Positions 7,601 to 26,888 of a DNA stretch of 64,000 bases are shown here, piece by piece. A model generated the notes under the pieces. It saw only the letters and a program-made list of their open reading frames with translations, did not search any database and was not told where the DNA came from. Source of the DNA: Lachnospiraceae bacterium G41 (GTDB taxonomy: Bacteria; Bacillota; Clostridia; Lachnospirales; Lachnospiraceae); NCBI GenBank assembly GCA_900100245.1, contig FNEU01000004.1, forward strand, positions 84,219 through 148,218, read 5' to 3'. Every line of letters starts with the position of its first letter. Positions within the stretch are counted from its first letter, which is position 1. The position numbers and the translations under genes are program-made.

Positions 7601-9414
7601 ACTTTGCGGGAAGGTATCCTAAAAGAAAGTATAAATTCAAAAGCCTGCAGCAATACATGGCTTGGAGCCAACTAAATGGAAACAATAAGGCAAAAGAATA
7701 CTGTGCTAAAGTTTTGGACTACTTATACGAAAAGATTGATGACAGTGATGCTCACGTTCTCTTACAAGTCCAGAAAATGGATATGCGAAATGCGAAGATT
7801 AAGCTTTATGGTGAAGGAATTCTTTCTATTGAGCCAAATTTATCAGAAGAAACACAAATAATAGTTGATGAATATGAAGCTAATAATTCTCAGGAAAAGA
7901 CAATTTTTCAGATACTTGATAACATTCTTCGAGATAAAGAATCCACGATAGAACCCATATTAGAGGGAATAGATTATATAAACCAACTAATGGAAAGTCC
8001 GGAAGAGTCAATTAAGTATGAAAGCTATTATATTATGTTTTTATGTTTGGCTTTAAAAAATGATAATCTTTCTAAAGCAAGAAGATCAGAGTTGGTTTGC
8101 GATTGGATTGATAGAATTGAAAACATCTTTTCTTATATGGCGGGGTATGTGGCTGATATAGATTTATCATTTGTTTTGTTTGAACAGCTTTGGAATGATA
8201 TTGATAAAACCGCATCTAATCGGCTAAAAAAATTTATTCTTTTATGCTTGATTGATAAATCTTATAATGGCCAGGTTAACAAATTAAAAAAATATATTCT
8301 TGACTTTCTATACAATAAAAAATCAACCGCAAGAATATATTTTAATACAATCTTAGCGATATCTGAAGATGAGTGGAAGCATACAACCTATAATCAAAAA
8401 GTAATTTCACAAAACAAGAAAAAAAATTATATCATTTCAGGGGAGAAAGGTGTTCCTAAACCAGATGATATAGTTTATGCCTTGGGAAAGAAATTATATA
8501 AGTCAAAACGAGAAGATATAATTAATAAATATCTTTTCGAAGAAAAAGAGCTTGATATAAAAAAACTCGATATTCATAAAATGGATAAAGGATATTTATT
8601 TAATGCAACTAATACGGGTTTGCACTTGGATGATGAAGATTTTAACTATTTTATCAAAAGGATGATGCCATTATTAGTTAACTCAATGAGGGAAGAAGAA
8701 GCGAGATTTTCTATGATGCATTATTATGACAGATTAAGTGTAAAAGAAATGTTTATAAGAGAAATAGACAAAGAAAAAGGAAACTATAAAATGGTAATTG
8801 ATTTATTATTTGAGGATAGTTTGATCGATGGACTTTGTCGTGAATCAATAAAGATGTATCTTTCTATTTTTGGCTATATAGCTTCTTGGTATTTTGATGC
8901 TTATGAAGATAAGCCCAAACGAAAATATTGCTGTGAATGCATAAAATATATTGAAGAAAAAATAAAGATAATCAAAGATCCATATACAAAAAATCAGCTA
9001 GAAAAAACTTTTTTCTTTGGTGCAGAAAATAAAGTGGGTGATTGGAATAAATGTAAAACGCATTATGATTATGAAGATAAAATTTTTATACGTGAATTAT
9101 GGACGAAGTATTTCGTTAACCATGAAACAGATGTTATTTATGCGCTTTATCAGATGAAAATGGGAGAATTACTTCCGGAAATCCTACCAGTTATTAGTAA
9201 AACTATTGATTCTATAAGAAATAGAGGAGAAGTTTTTTCGGAAGAATGTAAGCTTATTATAGAAACATTTATTTTAAAAGCTTTTCTGGATTTTTCGGAA
9301 AGTATAAAAGCAGACATGGAATTTCATAATTCGTATGAGTCTATTCTAAATAACCTAATATATTATGGCGATGAAAAAGCTGCGGTTATATTAGATGAGT
9401 ATAGGACTCATTAA
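4678..9414 (+). CDS. Large SMEK-like/STAND P-loop NTPase, putative defence protein
   Basis: A 1578-residue protein starting at TTG 4678 behind an AGAGAGG site. Residues 1-170 resemble the SMEK domain found at the N-terminus of NLR-like NTPases: a helix with KLANKNGLF, then NYPCVDLL and YVQVST. The NTPase follows, with Walker A GEAGSGKS at 227-234 and a Walker B-like VIYVDALE at 282-289. About 1100 residues of mostly helical, Lys/Glu/Ile-rich sequence follow with no recognised catalytic motif, as in STAND sensors. The gene is clearly more AT-rich than glmM or glnS, which suggests acquisition by transfer. It stands alone and faces a toxin-antitoxin pair. Family knowledge suggests a stress or phage sensor that oligomerises on ligand binding. 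The effector activity is unknown, and the SMEK match is from memory. Confidence 0.65.
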   Translation: MIGSKQHIDFIMEYISAYEKKIKLANKNGLFNEAHLFELFAQEICKLWYGQDFRNLNEIKKNYPCVDLLSADGTIYVQVSTQEKIFDKVKNTLKTLDENKYPELEKISTPVFFVLSYVSESSVKDLIGEKQIGKYPFYAETNLISTSKIVQRAKNDVDFQKALYILLKNDVEDVETLSEKLLSIFDNSKSVGLFNINTKINDEYEIDRTNLVNIVRNDDCKFKVISGEAGSGKSVICKKVVESEPKVFFLRADSFANCRSIDGIWDISISRVFNYLKGEKVVIYVDALEYISNASESTKNILHSLLNEIHKYTNVYFIASCRSCDMSAFIKVFSLFDFKNFSVDMISEIELKDICRKYTIIKEMSESKKYAELIRSPFYINEIISKEISLTEAADVNSFRSFIWKECICINKKALEKGIPTNDVVRAVEFLALERSKRFSVGIFVEEIDSKILDLLRSNNVVTEKDDYIRLKYDIYEDICFEKMFDKEFDACKGVYKTFFTNIEKMGNGVYRRYQIWISNKLLAKENRDKFLYALVFGNDTSDDWHRSTLVGLIKSPFCKCFFDEQGLKLIEKNLISVFLELTNCFAFEMDGYSFNKIESIGSLKLKGVGFGRLALIKLIFENQLFKDDLLNKNSVVKICKDYSLLSKHVNDFDEYVFNIITYYVEEYLKEAMDDFSKTTDNIHQLLKIIYSLSNIAHLWINEFWKKLINIYLGEDNRKSRLAEEILTWTLDNLTEVLINEEVEGLLDIALKLWTSKKESDKQKHIIYGTELNDDYLWGIYGAGENYNYSHSKVEDDYFLRLLFFRKFNIAFEWMITIINQMVSNYSSHEPNDLLDVVLFDCDEKKEKKFLGSGRMWFAGREENVLPDLIGDLVYWAKESAIKILHAYENDSEFFQNFAVYIKNQIINESTNIIPFVIIEELGFEFPDKLPGYALSLISSMDIIFWDVNWEVTNTTSLAKEILEKQIKMAMGVPNFAGRYPKRKYKFKSLQQYMAWSQLNGNNKAKEYCAKVLDYLYEKIDDSDAHVLLQVQKMDMRNAKIKLYGEGILSIEPNLSEETQIIVDEYEANNSQEKTIFQILDNILRDKESTIEPILEGIDYINQLMESPEESIKYESYYIMFLCLALKNDNLSKARRSELVCDWIDRIENIFSYMAGYVADIDLSFVLFEQLWNDIDKTASNRLKKFILLCLIDKSYNGQVNKLKKYILDFLYNKKSTARIYFNTILAISEDEWKHTTYNQKVISQNKKKNYIISGEKGVPKPDDIVYALGKKLYKSKREDIINKYLFEEKELDIKKLDIHKMDKGYLFNATNTGLHLDDEDFNYFIKRMMPLLVNSMREEEARFSMMHYYDRLSVKEMFIREIDKEKGNYKMVIDLLFEDSLIDGLCRESIKMYLSIFGYIASWYFDAYEDKPKRKYCCECIKYIEEKIKIIKDPYTKNQLEKTFFFGAENKVGDWNKCKTHYDYEDKIFIRELWTKYFVNHETDVIYALYQMKMGELLPEILPVISKTIDSIRNRGEVFSEECKLIIETFILKAFLDFSESIKADMEFHNSYESILNNLIYYGDEKAAVILDEYRTH

Positions 9415-21382: not shown

Positions 21383-22165
21383 ATGAGTACTTACGTTTTA
21401 AGTGATATTCACGGTCAATATGATGCTTTCATGAACATGTTAAAGCAGATCAATTTTTCCGACAATGATACGCTTTTCGTACTCGGGGACGCTATAGACA
21501 GAGGCCCGGACGGTATAAAGATTTTAAAGACCATCATGAAGATGGATAATGTAAAAATGTTTCTCGGCAATCATGAGCTTTTAATGATGGAAGCCTTAAG
21601 AAACGTCGAGGAATGCGAAAAAGAAGGCAGACAGGACACCGAAGAGCTTGATTTGTGGCTCGATGAATGCAACGGCGGCCGACAGACCTTCGAGGATTTT
21701 AAGAAATGCTCCGCGAAAAAGAAAGCGGAAATTCTTATATATCTTGACAATGCAATCGTGGCTAAAAAAGTCAAAATGGGCAAAAAGACATACTATCTTT
21801 GCCACGCATACGCCGTGAGCAAGAGATTTGACAACGAAGTCAAATACAACGAGCTTATCTACCGAGATGTATTCCAGGCCGTTTGGCAGAATATCTACGA
21901 TGCGGGCTTTGCCAAGAAATTAAATGAAAAAATATTCCCGAACAAAAAATACATTTACGTTCTGGGACATATCTTTACTCAGCGTCTCGACAGTGTAGAT
22001 GAACAAGGCAGGGGCATAGTTCTCGATGACAAGAACTTCCTCGATGGATACCATATCATCAACATTGACTGCGGTATGGCGCTTCGAAACAAATCGAGTC
22101 AGCTCGCCTGCATGAGGCTTGAGGACGAGAAAATCTTTTATGAGGCTTTAGATGTCGAAGATTAA
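21383..22165 (+). CDS. PPP-type metallophosphatase, partner of the kinase
   Basis: A 260-residue protein with the calcineurin-like metal motifs LSDIHGQYD, VLGDAIDRGPD and LGNHE, and later histidines in LCHAYAVS and VLGHIFT. This matches bacterial Ser/Thr phosphoprotein or diadenosine tetraphosphate phosphatases (PrpA/PrpE, ApaH-like). The adjacent kinase favours protein dephosphorylation. The start ATG 21383 follows AAGGGGA. Its last 14 bases overlap the start of the next gene, so the phosphatase and the 4,6-dehydratase are translationally coupled. Confidence 0.88.
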   Translation: MSTYVLSDIHGQYDAFMNMLKQINFSDNDTLFVLGDAIDRGPDGIKILKTIMKMDNVKMFLGNHELLMMEALRNVEECEKEGRQDTEELDLWLDECNGGRQTFEDFKKCSAKKKAEILIYLDNAIVAKKVKMGKKTYYLCHAYAVSKRFDNEVKYNELIYRDVFQAVWQNIYDAGFAKKLNEKIFPNKKYIYVLGHIFTQRLDSVDEQGRGIVLDDKNFLDGYHIINIDCGMALRNKSSQLACMRLEDEKIFYEALDVED

Positions 22166-24050
22166 ACTGCATATCAGCAGGCAAATGATTCTAAGAATAA
22201 TATTGCTGGCCGTAATGGACATGATTAGCATTCTTGTCGTTACGGTTTTTGCTATTTATGTTCGTTATGATTTTTCCTTCAAGGATTTGCCTGAACACTT
22301 TTTAAAATCTACTATTTGGTTCATTCCGATTAACCTGGTCGTGACGATGATAAGCTTCGTGGCATGGAATCTTTACACCTCCGTCTGGAGATACGCATCC
22401 GCCACAGAACTCATTAAAATCATCGCAGCCGTAACCACGGCGACCATCGGACAGGTTATCTGCAAATTCATTTTTAAATTACCGATTCCGAGATCATATC
22501 CTTTGATTTACCTGGTTGCGCTTCTTGCAATTACATCCGCCATCAGGTTTTCTTATCGTGCGCTTCGAATCCTTCGTGCCAAAAGAAGAGTCCGCGAAAG
22601 CGGCAAAGAGCCCACCAGATGCATGGTTATCGGCGCAGGCAGTGCGGGAAATGAAATCATAAAAGAAATATCCACTACTCAGTACCTCACAATGAAGGTT
22701 TGCTGTATCATCGATGACGGCCAGGGTTGCTGGGGCAAAAAACTTCGTGGTGTTCCCATTGTAGGCGGCCGTGATGTAATCGTTCAGGCGGCTGCAGAAT
22801 ACAATATCGCGGAGATTATCATCGCAATTCCTTCGGCAAAGCCCTCAGAGATAAAGGAAATAGTAAATATCTGCAAGGAAACAGGCTGTAAGATGCGTAT
22901 CCTTCCCGGTATGTATCAGCTTATAAACGGCGAAGTTGATGTCGATGTATCCAAACTTCGTGATGTACAGATTGAGGATCTTTTAGGAAGAGAACCCGTC
23001 AGTACAAACTTAGACGAAATCATGGGCTATGTATCGGGCAGAGTCATCATGGTTACAGGTGGCGGCGGATCAATCGGATCCGAACTTTGCAGACAGATCG
23101 CGGGCCACAATCCCAAGCAGCTTATCATCGTTGATATCTACGAAAACAATGCTTATGACATCCAGCAGGAGCTGGCGCGTAAATTCCCCGAGTTAAATCT
23201 CGTGGTACTTATCGCGTCCGTTCGAAACACGCTGAGAATGGATAAGATTTTTGAAGAATACAAGCCTGACATTGTCTATCATGCGGCAGCTCACAAGCAT
23301 GTTCCGCTCATGGAAGAAAGCCCCAACGAGGCTATCAAAAACAATGTTTTAGGTACACTCAAGGTCGTTAAGGCGGCTGATAAATGGAAGGTTAAAAAGT
23401 TCGTACTTATTTCGACCGACAAGGCCGTTAACCCCACAAACGTAATGGGCGCAACCAAGCGTATCTGCGAAATGATAGTACAAACCTACAACGAGCGTTC
23501 CGAGACCGAGTTTGTAGCAGTACGATTCGGCAATGTTTTAGGATCGAACGGTTCGGTTATTCCGCTCTTTAAAAAGCAGATTGAAGCAGGCGGTCCCGTA
23601 ACCGTTACACATCCTGATATCATCAGATATTTCATGACGATTCCCGAAGCTGTTGCTCTGGTTTTACAGGCCGGCGCATACGCAAAGGGCGGCGAAATCT
23701 TCGTGCTCGACATGGGCGAGCCCGTCAAGATTCTCGACCTCGCAGAGAACTTAATCAAGCTCTCCGGCCTTCGTGTCGGCGATGATATCGAGATAGTCTT
23801 CACCGGCTTAAGACCCGGCGAAAAGCTCTTCGAAGAGATGTTAATGGACGAGGAAGGCCTGACCGAGACCCGCAACAAGCGTATCCACATCGGCCACCCC
23901 ATCAACTTCAACGAGGACGAATTCCTCGCGCAGATTGAAAACCTCAAGACCTTCGTAGAAGGCGAGCCCGACATAGAAGAAGTCAAAAAGAAAATCGCCG
24001 AGATAGTCCCGACGTATAAGGCAGCTGCAGATGACGCGAAGGCGAAGTAG
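22152..24050 (+). CDS. Membrane UDP-N-acetylhexosamine 4,6-dehydratase (PglF/WbpM/CapD family)
   Basis: A 632-residue protein. Four N-terminal membrane helices (about residues 10-135) are followed by a first Rossmann domain (CMVIGAGSAGNEI) and a second, catalytic SDR domain with VTGGGGSIGSEL and HAAAHKHVPLMEE. The active-site triad uses Met in place of Tyr (STDKAVNPTNVMGATK), as in this dehydratase family. It forms the 4-keto-6-deoxy intermediate of UDP-GlcNAc, leading to sugars such as QuiNAc, FucNAc or bacillosamine. Its TAG stop (24048-24050) is followed, in the same frame and without another stop, by the 63-bp repeats and the next epimerase. The C-terminal tail is Ala/Lys-rich. Confidence 0.9.
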   Translation: MSKIKLHISRQMILRIILLAVMDMISILVVTVFAIYVRYDFSFKDLPEHFLKSTIWFIPINLVVTMISFVAWNLYTSVWRYASATELIKIIAAVTTATIGQVICKFIFKLPIPRSYPLIYLVALLAITSAIRFSYRALRILRAKRRVRESGKEPTRCMVIGAGSAGNEIIKEISTTQYLTMKVCCIIDDGQGCWGKKLRGVPIVGGRDVIVQAAAEYNIAEIIIAIPSAKPSEIKEIVNICKETGCKMRILPGMYQLINGEVDVDVSKLRDVQIEDLLGREPVSTNLDEIMGYVSGRVIMVTGGGGSIGSELCRQIAGHNPKQLIIVDIYENNAYDIQQELARKFPELNLVVLIASVRNTLRMDKIFEEYKPDIVYHAAAHKHVPLMEESPNEAIKNNVLGTLKVVKAADKWKVKKFVLISTDKAVNPTNVMGATKRICEMIVQTYNERSETEFVAVRFGNVLGSNGSVIPLFKKQIEAGGPVTVTHPDIIRYFMTIPEAVALVLQAGAYAKGGEIFVLDMGEPVKILDLAENLIKLSGLRVGDDIEIVFTGLRPGEKLFEEMLMDEEGLTETRNKRIHIGHPINFNEDEFLAQIENLKTFVEGEPDIEEVKKKIAEIVPTYKAAADDAKAK

Positions 24051-24068
24051 TTTACGCGCGGAGGCGGA

Positions 24069-24486
24069 AGTTACGCGCACAGGCGCTGTGGAGACTCAAA
24101 CGCGCGTAATATTGCGCAGGCGGCAGTCATAGACTACGCGCGAATAGCAAGAGAAGTCCCAAACGCGCGTAAGATTGCGAGGGTGGAAGCCATAGACTAC
24201 GCGCGAAAAGCAAGAGAAGTCCCAAACGCGCGTAAGATTGTGCGGGCGAAAGTTATAGACTACGCGCGAAAAGCAAGAGAAGTCTCAAACGCGCGTAAGA
24301 TTGTGCGGGCTGAAACCTTGGACTACGCGCGAAAAGCAAGAGAAGTCCCAAACGCGCGTAAAATTACGCGGGCGAAAGTTATAGACTACGCGCGAAAAGC
24401 AAGAGAAGCTTCAAACGCACGTAAGATTGCGCGGGCGGCAGTCATAGACTACGCGCGAAAAGCAAGAGAAGTCTCAAACGCGCGTA
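24069..24486 (+). repeat. Seven-copy 63-bp tandem repeat, open in one frame
   Basis: Full copies start at 24132, 24195, 24258, 24321, 24384 and 24447, exactly 63 bp apart. A degenerate copy starts at 24069 and the last copy is cut short. Each unit contains TACGCGCG and, 21 nt later, CGCGCGTA, so each can form a hairpin. In the frame of both neighbouring genes the unit has no stop and would read DYARKAREVPNARKIVRAKVI-like, 21 residues. The other two forward frames have stops. Most differences between copies change the amino acid, which argues against a conserved protein. No SD precedes the in-frame GTG at 24183. The array occupies the whole gap between the two genes. Confidence 0.9.
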
Positions 24487-24497
24487 AACAGAAGAAT

Positions 24498-25637
24498 ATG
24501 AAAAGAATTCTAATCACGGGTGCCGGAAGTTTTATTGGTACCTCCTTCGAAAACTACATAAAGAATCACACAAATCATGCTGAGTATGAGATAAGTGTGA
24601 TGGATACGCTGACAGGAAAAATCGTCAGTGGAAGTTCGTTATCTGATAAGAGAAAAGACACTTGCAAGGATGCTACAGACACTGGCAAAGAAATTGCAAA
24701 TGATGATAAAGATGTTGCTGAAACTGGCAAGAATGTTGCAGATGCTATTTCAGATAATGAAAATGATGCATCGACTGACACCTGGAACTTCGACGGATAT
24801 GATGTAGTTTTTCATGTAGCTGGCATAGCACATGCAGACGTCGGAAAAGTCACAGAAGAAGGCAAGGAACTTTACAGAAAAGTAAATACCGAACTTGCGA
24901 TTGAAACTGCGAAGAAAGCCAAGGCAGCAGGCGTTAAACAGTTCATTTTTATGAGCTCAGCGATTGTTTATGGCGCCAGTTCTCCAATAGGAAAAGAAAA
25001 AATCATAACAAAAGATACAAAGCCCGAACCCGAGAACTTCTACGGTGAGAGCAAACTTAATGCCGAAACAGGATTGTTGAAGCTTATGAGCAATGAAGGT
25101 GAAAATAAGCTTAATGCCGAGACAGGACTTTCGGAATTGTCTGATGGAGATACTCAGGCTAATCGCAATCAGACAGAAGTGGCCGACAGTTCGGGAAAGC
25201 CTTTCAAGGTGGTCATCCTGCGACCTCCGATGATTTACGGACCGGGCTGCAAGGGCAATTACAATTCACTGAGGAAATTTGCTCTGAAATTTCCGGTATT
25301 TCCCAAAGTTGCCAATGAGCGTTCAATGCTTTACATAGATAACCTCTGCGAATTCGTGAGACTGATGATCGACAACGAAGAGAGCGGAATTTTCCATCCT
25401 GCCAACGCAGAGACATCAAACACATCAGAGATGGTTAAAATGATAGCCGAAGCCCACGGCAAAAAGAAAGCACTCATGGGTGGTCTGACTTGGCTTTTAA
25501 AACTTTTAAGCCACTTTACAGGACTTGTAAACAAAGCTTTCGGTAATTTAACCTATGCAGAAGAACTCACGGAATACAAAGATAACTATAGAATCTATTC
25601 GCTTACAGAAAGCATCACTGCCACTGAACAGCAATGA
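24498..25637 (+). CDS. NAD-dependent sugar epimerase with two low-complexity insertions
   Basis: A 379-residue extended-SDR protein. ATG 24498 is chosen because MKRILITGAGSFIG is the canonical Rossmann start, although the ribosome site is weak. HVAGIAHADVG, MSSAIVYG, the catalytic YGESK and RPPMIYGPG follow. Compared with the family pattern, it carries an extra Asp/Lys/Thr-rich stretch at about residues 42-94, with imperfect TGKEIA/TGKNVA repeats. A second insertion follows YGES, where KLNAETGL occurs twice (25051 and 25107 regions). It probably reduces or epimerises the 4-keto sugar made by the preceding gene. The TGA stop is the start of a TGACAC repeat. Confidence 0.85.
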   Translation: MKRILITGAGSFIGTSFENYIKNHTNHAEYEISVMDTLTGKIVSGSSLSDKRKDTCKDATDTGKEIANDDKDVAETGKNVADAISDNENDASTDTWNFDGYDVVFHVAGIAHADVGKVTEEGKELYRKVNTELAIETAKKAKAAGVKQFIFMSSAIVYGASSPIGKEKIITKDTKPEPENFYGESKLNAETGLLKLMSNEGENKLNAETGLSELSDGDTQANRNQTEVADSSGKPFKVVILRPPMIYGPGCKGNYNSLRKFALKFPVFPKVANERSMLYIDNLCEFVRLMIDNEESGIFHPANAETSNTSEMVKMIAEAHGKKKALMGGLTWLLKLLSHFTGLVNKAFGNLTYAEELTEYKDNYRIYSLTESITATEQQ

Positions 25638-25701
25638 CACCGCGGACCGAGTTTAGTGTCACTTTTGTGATAATGACACCGGGAACTGGGGTTTAGTGTC
25701 A
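25635..25701 (+). repeat. Two tandem TGACAC...GTGTCA repeats
   Basis: The first element is 25635-25661 and the second 25674-25701. Each has TGACAC and GTGTCA arms with a core close to GGACCGAGTTTA or GGGAACTGGGGTTTA. The first three bases are the stop codon of the epimerase, as also happens at glmM. Confidence 0.8.
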
Positions 25702-25782
25702 GTTTTATGATAAAAGAACCATGAATTAAACGAAACAATATAGTGCAATATTACAATAAAAACATAAATACATTGTTAAATA

Positions 25783-25811
25783 TTTACAATAATCAACCGA
25801 TATGGTAATAT
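25783..25811 (+). promoter_or_regulatory. Promoter of the type I toxin mRNA
   Basis: TTTACA (25783-25788) and TAATAT (25806-25811) have a 17-bp spacer, placing the start near 25818. Confidence 0.65.
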
Positions 25812-25908
25812 CATCTCAGGTGTTACCAATAACACGGTAGGCGGTTGCCCTCCATTTTTTGAGGAGGGTTCTCACCCTCCAATCTGCAAAGAAAGGAGGG
25901 GGATGCTA

Positions 25909-26004
25909 ATGTTCGTGACTTTTGATGTATTAATTCAGACGTTTATAATGCTCATAGCATTTGCGACACTGATAGTAATAATCTTTAGAAATGACAAAAA
26001 ATAA
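25909..26004 (+). CDS. Type I toxin, holin-like membrane peptide
   Basis: A 31-residue peptide: MFVTFDVLIQTFIMLIAFAT, then LIVIIFRNDKK. A short polar start, one hydrophobic helix and a charged tail match the putative holin-like toxins (Hol_Tox, TxpA-related) of Firmicutes. ATG 25909 is preferred because AGGAGG (25894-25899) is 9 nt upstream; an in-frame ATG at 25903 would add Met-Leu but is only 3 nt from the ribosome site. The structured leader and a converging antisense RNA over the 3' end complete the type I layout. When free of antisense RNA it would insert in the membrane and harm the cell. Confidence 0.8.
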   Translation: MFVTFDVLIQTFIMLIAFATLIVIIFRNDKK

Positions 26005-26080
26005 ACCCGTCCTGGTCCGACGGGTTTATTAGTTCTTCTAATATACCATTAGGGCAACCGTCTATCGGCAGCACCTTTTA
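25996..26080 (-). ncRNA. Antisense RNA antitoxin (RatA-like in position)
   Basis: Reading leftward, TTGACT (26115-26110) and TATAAT (26093-26088) are spaced by 16 bp. Transcription would start near 26080 and end at the hairpin TAAACCCGTC/GACGGGTTTA (26028-26002), which on this strand is followed by six T. The predicted RNA of about 85 nt overlaps the 3' end of the toxin mRNA. The exact ends are inferred. Confidence 0.75.
26002..26028. terminator. Bidirectional terminator shared by toxin mRNA and antisense RNA
   Basis: A 10-bp perfect stem TAAACCCGTC/GACGGGTTTA with a 7-nt loop. It has six T on the leftward side and a weaker T-rich tail on the rightward side, so some toxin mRNA may read through to 26076. 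Confidence 0.85.
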
Positions 26081-26150
26081 TAATTTTATTATATTATCAG
26101 GACGGTAAAAGTCAAGCAATATAAGCAGTTTTCAAACATCATAAAAGATA

Positions 26151-26888
26151 ATGACGGTCAGTATAATCACCATTTGCTTCAACTCCGAAGCAGCGATAAA
26201 AAAGACAATTGAATCGGTTTTAAACCAGACTTACACGGATATCGAGTACATAATCATCGACGGTGCGAGCAAAGATAAAACGGTTGAAATCGCCGAATCC
26301 TACAAGGATGCATTCGCCGAAAAAGGTATCGACTACAAGATTTTTTCCGAGCCGGACAAAGGCATTTATGATGCCATGAACAAAGGCATCGCCAAAGCTA
26401 CGGGCGAACTTGTAGGACTTATTAATTCCGGTGACTTTTATGAGCCTCAAATGATAGAAACGGCCGTAAAAGCGTTCGAAGAGAAGCCCTACGATATCTT
26501 TTATGGTGACATCAATTTGATCAAGGATAACGGCCAAATAATCGTCAAAAAGAGTAAGTACGACAAGCTCCCGACCTCGCGTCACTGGAATCATCCGACG
26601 ATGGTGGTTAGAAAAGCGTATTACGACGAGATCGGTACATACAAGTGCGAGGGAATTCATGACGATTTTGAATTCTTTTTACGAGCAAGGAAAAAGAATG
26701 CCCGCATAACCATCAAGAATGTTACGTTGGCTAATTTTATGACGGGCGGCGCGAGCAATAAGAAGAGTTTCAAGCAGTGCAAAAAACGCTGCAAGGACCG
26801 CTACAAAGCTTACAGAGACAACGGCTACGGCATATGGTCGTGGTTTGAATGCGTGGGAATTGAGATAGCGAAGTTTATTATAAGTTAG
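26151..26888 (+). CDS. Family 2 glycosyltransferase
   Basis: A 245-residue cytosolic enzyme with the GT-A start VSIITICFNSEAAIKKTIES, VLNQTY and YIIIDGASKDKT, then KGIYDAMNKGIAKATGE and the DxD-like YGDINL. It lacks membrane helices and transfers one sugar from a nucleotide-sugar donor. It is the first gene of the main polysaccharide run and ends 8 bp before the next GT. It resembles the GT2 enzyme at 38637 in layout. Donor and acceptor are unknown. Confidence 0.9.
   Translation: MTVSIITICFNSEAAIKKTIESVLNQTYTDIEYIIIDGASKDKTVEIAESYKDAFAEKGIDYKIFSEPDKGIYDAMNKGIAKATGELVGLINSGDFYEPQMIETAVKAFEEKPYDIFYGDINLIKDNGQIIVKKSKYDKLPTSRHWNHPTMVVRKAYYDEIGTYKCEGIHDDFEFFLRARKKNARITIKNVTLANFMTGGASNKKSFKQCKKRCKDRYKAYRDNGYGIWSWFECVGIEIAKFIIS

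Follow-up and report, generated by a model that had tools for sequence, protein, structure and literature searches.

A tandem hairpin array between a dehydratase and an epimerase gene

The window, i.e. the whole stretch of DNA that was analysed, comprises 64,000 nucleotides of contig C21 (84219-148218) of the host genome (G000, 2.59 Mb). The TAG of a polysaccharide biosynthesis dehydratase gene (24048-24050) and the ATG of an epimerase gene (24498) are separated by 447 bp, a length divisible by 3, which accommodates a tandem array of hairpins. The features of the locus are:

22152-24050, + strand: upstream gene, polysaccharide biosynthesis dehydratase (Polysacc_synt_2, Pfam)
24053-24059, + strand: extra TACGCGC half-site, off the lattice, directly after the dehydratase stop (read from the sequence)
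24072-24486, no strand assigned: tandem hairpin array, seven inward arm pairs, period 63 (TRF and arm count)
24072-24108, no strand assigned: hairpin 1, unrelated loop
24135-24171, no strand assigned: hairpin 2
24198-24234, no strand assigned: hairpin 3
24261-24297, no strand assigned: hairpin 4
24324-24360, no strand assigned: hairpin 5
24387-24423, no strand assigned: hairpin 6, right arm GCACGTA with one mismatch
24450-24486, no strand assigned: hairpin 7, ending 11 bp ahead of the epimerase ATG
24498-25637, + strand: downstream gene, NAD-dependent epimerase/dehydratase family (Pfam)

The unit consists of TACGCGC, 23 bp and GCGCGTA, with 26 bp before the next unit. By arm count the seven hairpins are 14 half-sites, all at 30/33 spacing, and TRF returned a period of 63 with 6.2 copies and 86% matches (24097-24487); both agree with a preliminary description of this DNA, which had reported seven copies at exact 63-bp spacing. 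The 8-bp hairpin that it ascribed to each unit was seen in the single window unit folded alone. The loop of hairpin 1 is unrelated to the others; the remaining variable parts of the array are near-copies. No Rfam family was matched up to E=1 in the 23000-26200 segment of the window. After the epimerase stop (25633-25713) TRF also detected a 40-bp tandem repeat in two copies with inverted ends (TGACAC...GTGTCA), perhaps another small hairpin repeat.

At a threshold of E 1e-60, the dehydratase search matched 22 of the 31 genomes of the genus. The epimerase was seen adjacent in 13 of the 22 (the host included), with hairpins at the junction in five and none in eight. There are seven hairpins in the host, six in G023, five in G003, two in G006 and one, with a mismatched arm pair, in G010. 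The arms at the G023 junction, which turned up without an arm search, are TACGGGC/GCCCGTA and, once, TACGGGT/ACCCGTA. The sequence TACGCTCGTA is present at the junction in the array-free G013 and G020, where it is perhaps a remnant or a seed of an array.

The array belongs to a dispersed intergenic family

A blastn search of the host genome found four further places, and the arm-pair pattern, with 3-33 bp allowed between the arms, occurs 26 times (reversed control 0). With 16-30 bp allowed, the TACGCGC pair was found in 8 of the 31 genus genomes (control 0), of which two have just one site, and the TACGGGY/RCCCGTA pair in 11 of 31, with one or two matches to the reversed control in 9; the only match in G005, with a gap of 30, and both matches in G019, with gaps of 18 and 20, are chance-like. 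Among 84,980 species genomes, a collection that may omit the host or its near relatives, the strict motif retrieved 15 stretches in five Lachnospiraceae MAGs, two of which are titled rumen; several of the array-bearing bacteria come from the rumen. A scan of the bacterial family was positive in 5 of 397 genomes: 25 sites lie in the host, two genomes of a second genus have 47 and 40, and the remaining two have one chance-like site each; the reversed control gave single matches in 16 genomes. A class scan with a longer lattice pattern was positive in the host alone (1 of 391 genomes), and viral contigs gave 0 matches in both motif scans.

By crude ORF calls, 49 of 52 arrays lie outside any ORF of at least 110 aa and three overlap one; the flanking ORFs are co-directional at 28 arrays, divergent at 9 and convergent at 5, one flank being missing at 10. 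The window array is thus almost certainly one locus of a dispersed, mostly intergenic and non-coding family of hairpin arrays that occurs in two genera of one bacterial family. Among the matches listed in a search of mainly open-access literature, no title mentions such arrays in Lachnospiraceae.

Conserved arm distances in arrays with variable loops and spacers

Within the wide range allowed, the arms of the inward pair in the host genome are separated by N=23 in 24 of the 26 occurrences and by N=22 in two. The outward pair, for which 10-40 bp were allowed, is 26 bp apart in 23 of 24 cases and 27 bp in one (reversed control 0). Over 38 sources of the first genus, with duplicates excluded and chaining that permitted 29-31 inward and 32-34 outward, the inward distance is 30 in 125 of 132 cases (29 in five, 31 in two) and the outward distance 33 in 105 of 119 (34 in 11, 32 in three). 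Thirteen stretches of the second genus gave an inward distance of 30 in 104 of 108 cases and 29 in four (28-32 allowed), and an outward distance of 34 in 96 of 96 (31-36 allowed).

From one unit to the next, 157 of 2842 letters are changed in the arms, 1091 of 4391 in the loops and 1207 of 3958 in the spacers, a comparison that favours the arms because half-sites with more than two mismatches terminated the arrays; length changes number 12 in loops and 16 in spacers. Loop identity between arrays averages 0.44 (51 array rows, each represented by one unit). The arrays at the NIF3 gene of G000 and G023 have a loop identity of 0.41, which equals the shuffled level, and keep 104 of 112 arm letters. 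The HerA arrays are 98% alike in G000 and G006, and their loops have an identity of 0.63 between G000 and G013. The unit is an inward 7-bp arm pair of near-fixed outer length (37 bp; 36 bp in the TACGGGT form). Its tandem repetition follows a period of 62-64 bp, successive units being separated by 26 or 27 bp, and variation falls on the loops and spacers, whereas the arms and their distances are preserved. A common loop motif, AGCAAG, was enriched in two of the three lists of six-letter words (8 vs 0.89 and 4 vs 0.3 expected) and was rejected, since shared descent could account for the excess.

Forty-three of the 52 arrays end inside the DNA examined, and 35 of these run from a left arm to a right arm (5 are A-A, 2 B-B and 1 B-A), a count inflated because most loci were found by paired-arm searches, and in which two single hairpins fit by construction and orthologues are counted separately. 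The array unit is a complete inward hairpin. Pairing, inflated for the same reason, is of the Watson-Crick type at pair 5-33 in 164 of 199 units, vs an expectation of 133.9 if the columns were independent; in the 36-bp form, pairs 5 and 7 are complementary in 20 of 21 units, vs 11.3 expected, and beyond position 8 pairing drops below expectation. The arrays at the G023 junction, L028, L051 and L108 were seen without searching their arms. Complementary arm change fits a hairpin, and also a symmetric protein for which two identical half-sites are required.

A putative symmetric DNA-binding partner

The best reading, which we hold with somewhat less than even confidence, is that of an extragenic repeat of the BIME kind, the geometry of which is preserved for a putative symmetric DNA-binding partner; phased binding at the DNA level is suggested tentatively. 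A symmetric (dimeric) DNA-binding protein would recognise the paired arms in duplex DNA, tandem units whole helical turns apart would make the sites face one side, as in a BIME-like binding array, and the arrays would spread by unit copying and grow by tandem duplication. More doubtful, and unlikely as a whole, is the extended form of the proposal, in which inverted half-site pairs of near-constant length, repeated at whole turns (about 5, 6 or 7) and with exchangeable arms, would make up a class of chromosomal DNA lattices on which a putative symmetric protein assembles an ordered nucleoprotein structure at numerous intergenic sites of one genome.

Several observations point to DNA binding: (i) the arm distances stay fixed in the host despite wide freedom (24/26 and 23/24; reversed controls 0) and in the second genus (104/108 inward, 96/96 outward); (ii) the arms are far less changed than loops and spacers, the NIF3 arrays included; (iii) array ends are mostly complete hairpins (35/43); (iv) complementary arm variants were found at the G023 junction without a search for them; and (v) arm changes on the sense strand of oriented arrays are without a wobble bias (34 wobble and 29 A-C, i.e. 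about equal). Against it stand the facts that arms changed in both halves also suit a nucleic-acid hairpin, that the fixed lengths may partly descend through tandem copying and that arrays are often missing at orthologous sites. If the geometry reading is true, the arrays are natural DNA sites of a ruler-like kind, which preserve a distance but not most of their sequence, and they would point to a new chromosome-binding or copying protein.

The periods of the arrays also bear on DNA binding. TRF over all loci revealed that the second genus has more arrays, with other arms and with periods of 52, 62, 73 and 74 bp. Arrays with other arms lie at L108 10061-10643, L112 2954-3461, L107 4612-4900 and 64-326, L110 1936-2457 and L113 7988-8650, and several of the other-arm arrays of the second genus have purine-rich loops with CAAG. 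For ten array types, picked by the analyst and including two whose TRF consensus has a stem of 4-5 bp, the mean cosine to multiples of 10.5 bp is 0.93, which 0 of 200,000 random sets reach; periods so close to helical multiples favour DNA binding. Two omitted arrays with 7-bp stems have periods of 54 and 91 bp (5.14 and 8.67 turns), and their addition lowers the score to 0.78 (3 of 50,000 random sets); when related types are merged too, it is 0.74, matched by 86 of 50,000 random sets. The score is still 0.68 (6 of 50,000) after arrays without a long stem are added as well, so the period signal is not specific to hairpins. The periods of the ten types lie near whole turns of B-DNA, in a test that is post hoc and with array types that may share descent; these caveats and the lower scores weaken the argument for DNA binding, as does the inward distance of 30 bp, which is 2.86 turns and not a whole number.

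Possible action at the RNA level

Alternatively, the arrays may act as RNA: transcripts would carry rows of hairpins, each with a stem of 7-9 bp and a loop rich in purines, that affect the stability, processing or coupling of the neighbouring genes. When seven single units were folded as RNA, they proved more stable than most shuffled versions, with z values from -2.2 to -3.9, and the whole window array gave -2.19; these values, together with the preserved arm complementarity, are in line with such a role. So is the position of 28 of the 52 arrays between co-directional ORFs, the sense strand of which is purine-rich in 18, pyrimidine-rich in 6 and mixed in 4 (orthologues counted separately), although this strand polarity of the loop is a weak bias. 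Against a function in RNA, the near-equality of wobble and A-C changes gives no sign that transcript pairing is selected, 9 of the 52 arrays lie between divergent ORFs (crude ORF calls), no Rfam family matched the window locus up to E=1, and a simple hairpin does not need a fixed arm distance with unrelated loops. We consider action as RNA possible, but rather unlikely.

Turnover of the arrays

Arrays are present or absent at orthologous sites of related species, and some arrays of one genome share sequence. An RsmE-like gene, for instance, was matched in 30 of the 31 genomes and is followed by an array in G000 alone; there is one half-site in G006 and no array downstream of this gene in the other 28 stretches. 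Between G000 and G006, the L046/L061 arrays show 30 changes in 226 positions and no gap, against 6 changes in 724 positions of their flank and four gap openings there, at least one of which is at the alignment edge. The arrays change faster than the flank, seemingly by unit exchange.

The presence or absence between close species, the faster divergence of the arrays and the sequence common to several loci would also be expected of a neutral or selfish minisatellite, the units of which are copied and exchanged without a host function; perhaps the hairpins promote slippage, or the enzyme of a mobile element acts on them. That arms and distances persist where all else has changed argues against a mere minisatellite, and so does the distribution of the REP-type Y1 transposase, which does not track the arrays. 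Among the genus genomes, 6 of the 9 with arrays and 11 of the 22 others have this family, which is absent in the array-bearing G003, G006 and G010, all three of which are drafts; for want of a correlation, a Y1 (RAYT) transposase was rejected as the partner of the arrays. An origin as a minisatellite is, on balance, unlikely.

Pieces of Y1 transposase genes occur at many contig ends of G000 (C21, C16, C8, C10, C13, C4, C3 and C17), and the draft therefore seems to be broken at copies of an IS200-like element. An orphan gene of 265 aa lies between arrays in G000 (L051 6928-7722), and the same gene follows an array in G003 (L040); these are the only two loci where it was seen beside arrays. Its C-terminal part is PD-(D/E)xK-like (PADLOC models, PDC-S68); it matched no Pfam family, and no solved relative was better than E 0.28. 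An array of L051 is interrupted at about 7895-8155 by a run of N, an assembly gap or a masked stretch. Other palindromic repeats stand ahead of an array upstream of a GH120-type gene, in L052 before 6034 (G000) and in L008 at about 900-1060 (G023).

Comparison with known repeat systems

MIRU-type mycobacterial repeats are dispersed tandem repeats that lie between operon genes, sometimes in frame; we know of no arm-pair lattice in them.

REP families, according to excerpts of the literature, bear an unpaired tag (GTAG or CGTC) and have 5-13 bp in the stem and 2-20 in the loop, the GTAG type being associated with a transposase (PMC3733652); clusters have regular spacing and subfamilies with alternative complementary stem bases (PMC3733652, PMC2817692). 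Judged by these excerpts, the arrays resemble REP, BIME and REPIN elements as short, dispersed, extragenic palindromes in many copies (26 exact arm pairs in the host). They differ from REP and BIME in a near-fixed arm distance and a constant period of 62-64 bp, and may differ in their loops of 18-23 bp; the stem of 7-9 bp fits, and the loop measures about 21 bp with TACGCGC arms and 18-22 with TACGGGT arms. In contrast to the GTAG REPs as outlined there, the arrays have no link to the Y1 (RAYT) transposase. No unpaired GTAG or CGTC tag is conserved across the arrays (GTA lies in the paired arm, the next base being A or G). With neither the tag nor the transposase, we regard the arrays as a cluster resembling the BIME type and do not file them as GTAG or CGTC REPs.

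A guide-RNA-type array, CRISPR or TIGR, would likewise be built from units in tandem, each combining a short conserved segment with variable segments of constant length. TIGR arrays, in the available portions of their description, have two 8-12 nt repeats, 9-nt spacers and an adjacent Nop-domain gene, and stem-loop-array relatives exist (PMC12045711). As far as those portions go, the arrays share with them regular tandem units and are set apart by gaps of 23 and 26-27 bp and by variable parts that are near-copies within an array; they differ from CRISPR, which has identical repeats, unrelated spacers and nearby cas genes, in that the arms alone are constant, the rest being near-copies within an array. 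Neither Cas nor Nop families were matched among 20 neighbouring proteins scanned with Pfam, several loci occur per genome and the viral-contig scans gave 0 matches. On the basis of the layout and of the 20 neighbours scanned, CRISPR and TIGR were rejected, and a guide-RNA function is very improbable.

The open frame across the array

The preliminary description had proposed a hidden protein linker, i.e. a dehydratase-linker-epimerase fusion by suppression of the dehydratase stop, which is hardly credible in view of in-frame stops or shifted frames at the orthologous junction of five relatives, the period of 64 in arrays of the second genus, equal variation at the codon positions and the chance expectation of open frames. 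As that description stated, the frame is open from the dehydratase through the epimerase ATG, with no stop in the 447-bp gap, and the period is divisible by 3. When the columns of the units were shuffled around unchanged arms, 69% of 2000 shuffles left one or more of the six frames open, and 11% left open the dehydratase-epimerase frame itself. In first-genus arrays with at least six half-sites (n=28) some frame is open in 14, and the window frame or its mirror in 9; for the second genus (n=15 arrays) these numbers are 3 and 0. The open frame at the window is unremarkable, as expected by chance.

The G003 junction has an in-frame TGA and a TAA just ahead of the ATG. The stop-to-ATG gaps of G006 (134 bp), G010 (98), G013 (22) and G023 (478) are not divisible by 3, and lengths of this kind, as also seen in the period of 64, had been named beforehand as evidence against a coding array. 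Even if neutral, the arrays show how in-frame intergenic repeats can get mistaken for protein. Pairwise comparison of five window units gave 28, 28 and 26 differences at codon positions 1, 2 and 3, and their codon differences are synonymous in 17 cases and amino-acid-changing in 45, which bears out the earlier remark that the differences favour a non-coding origin.
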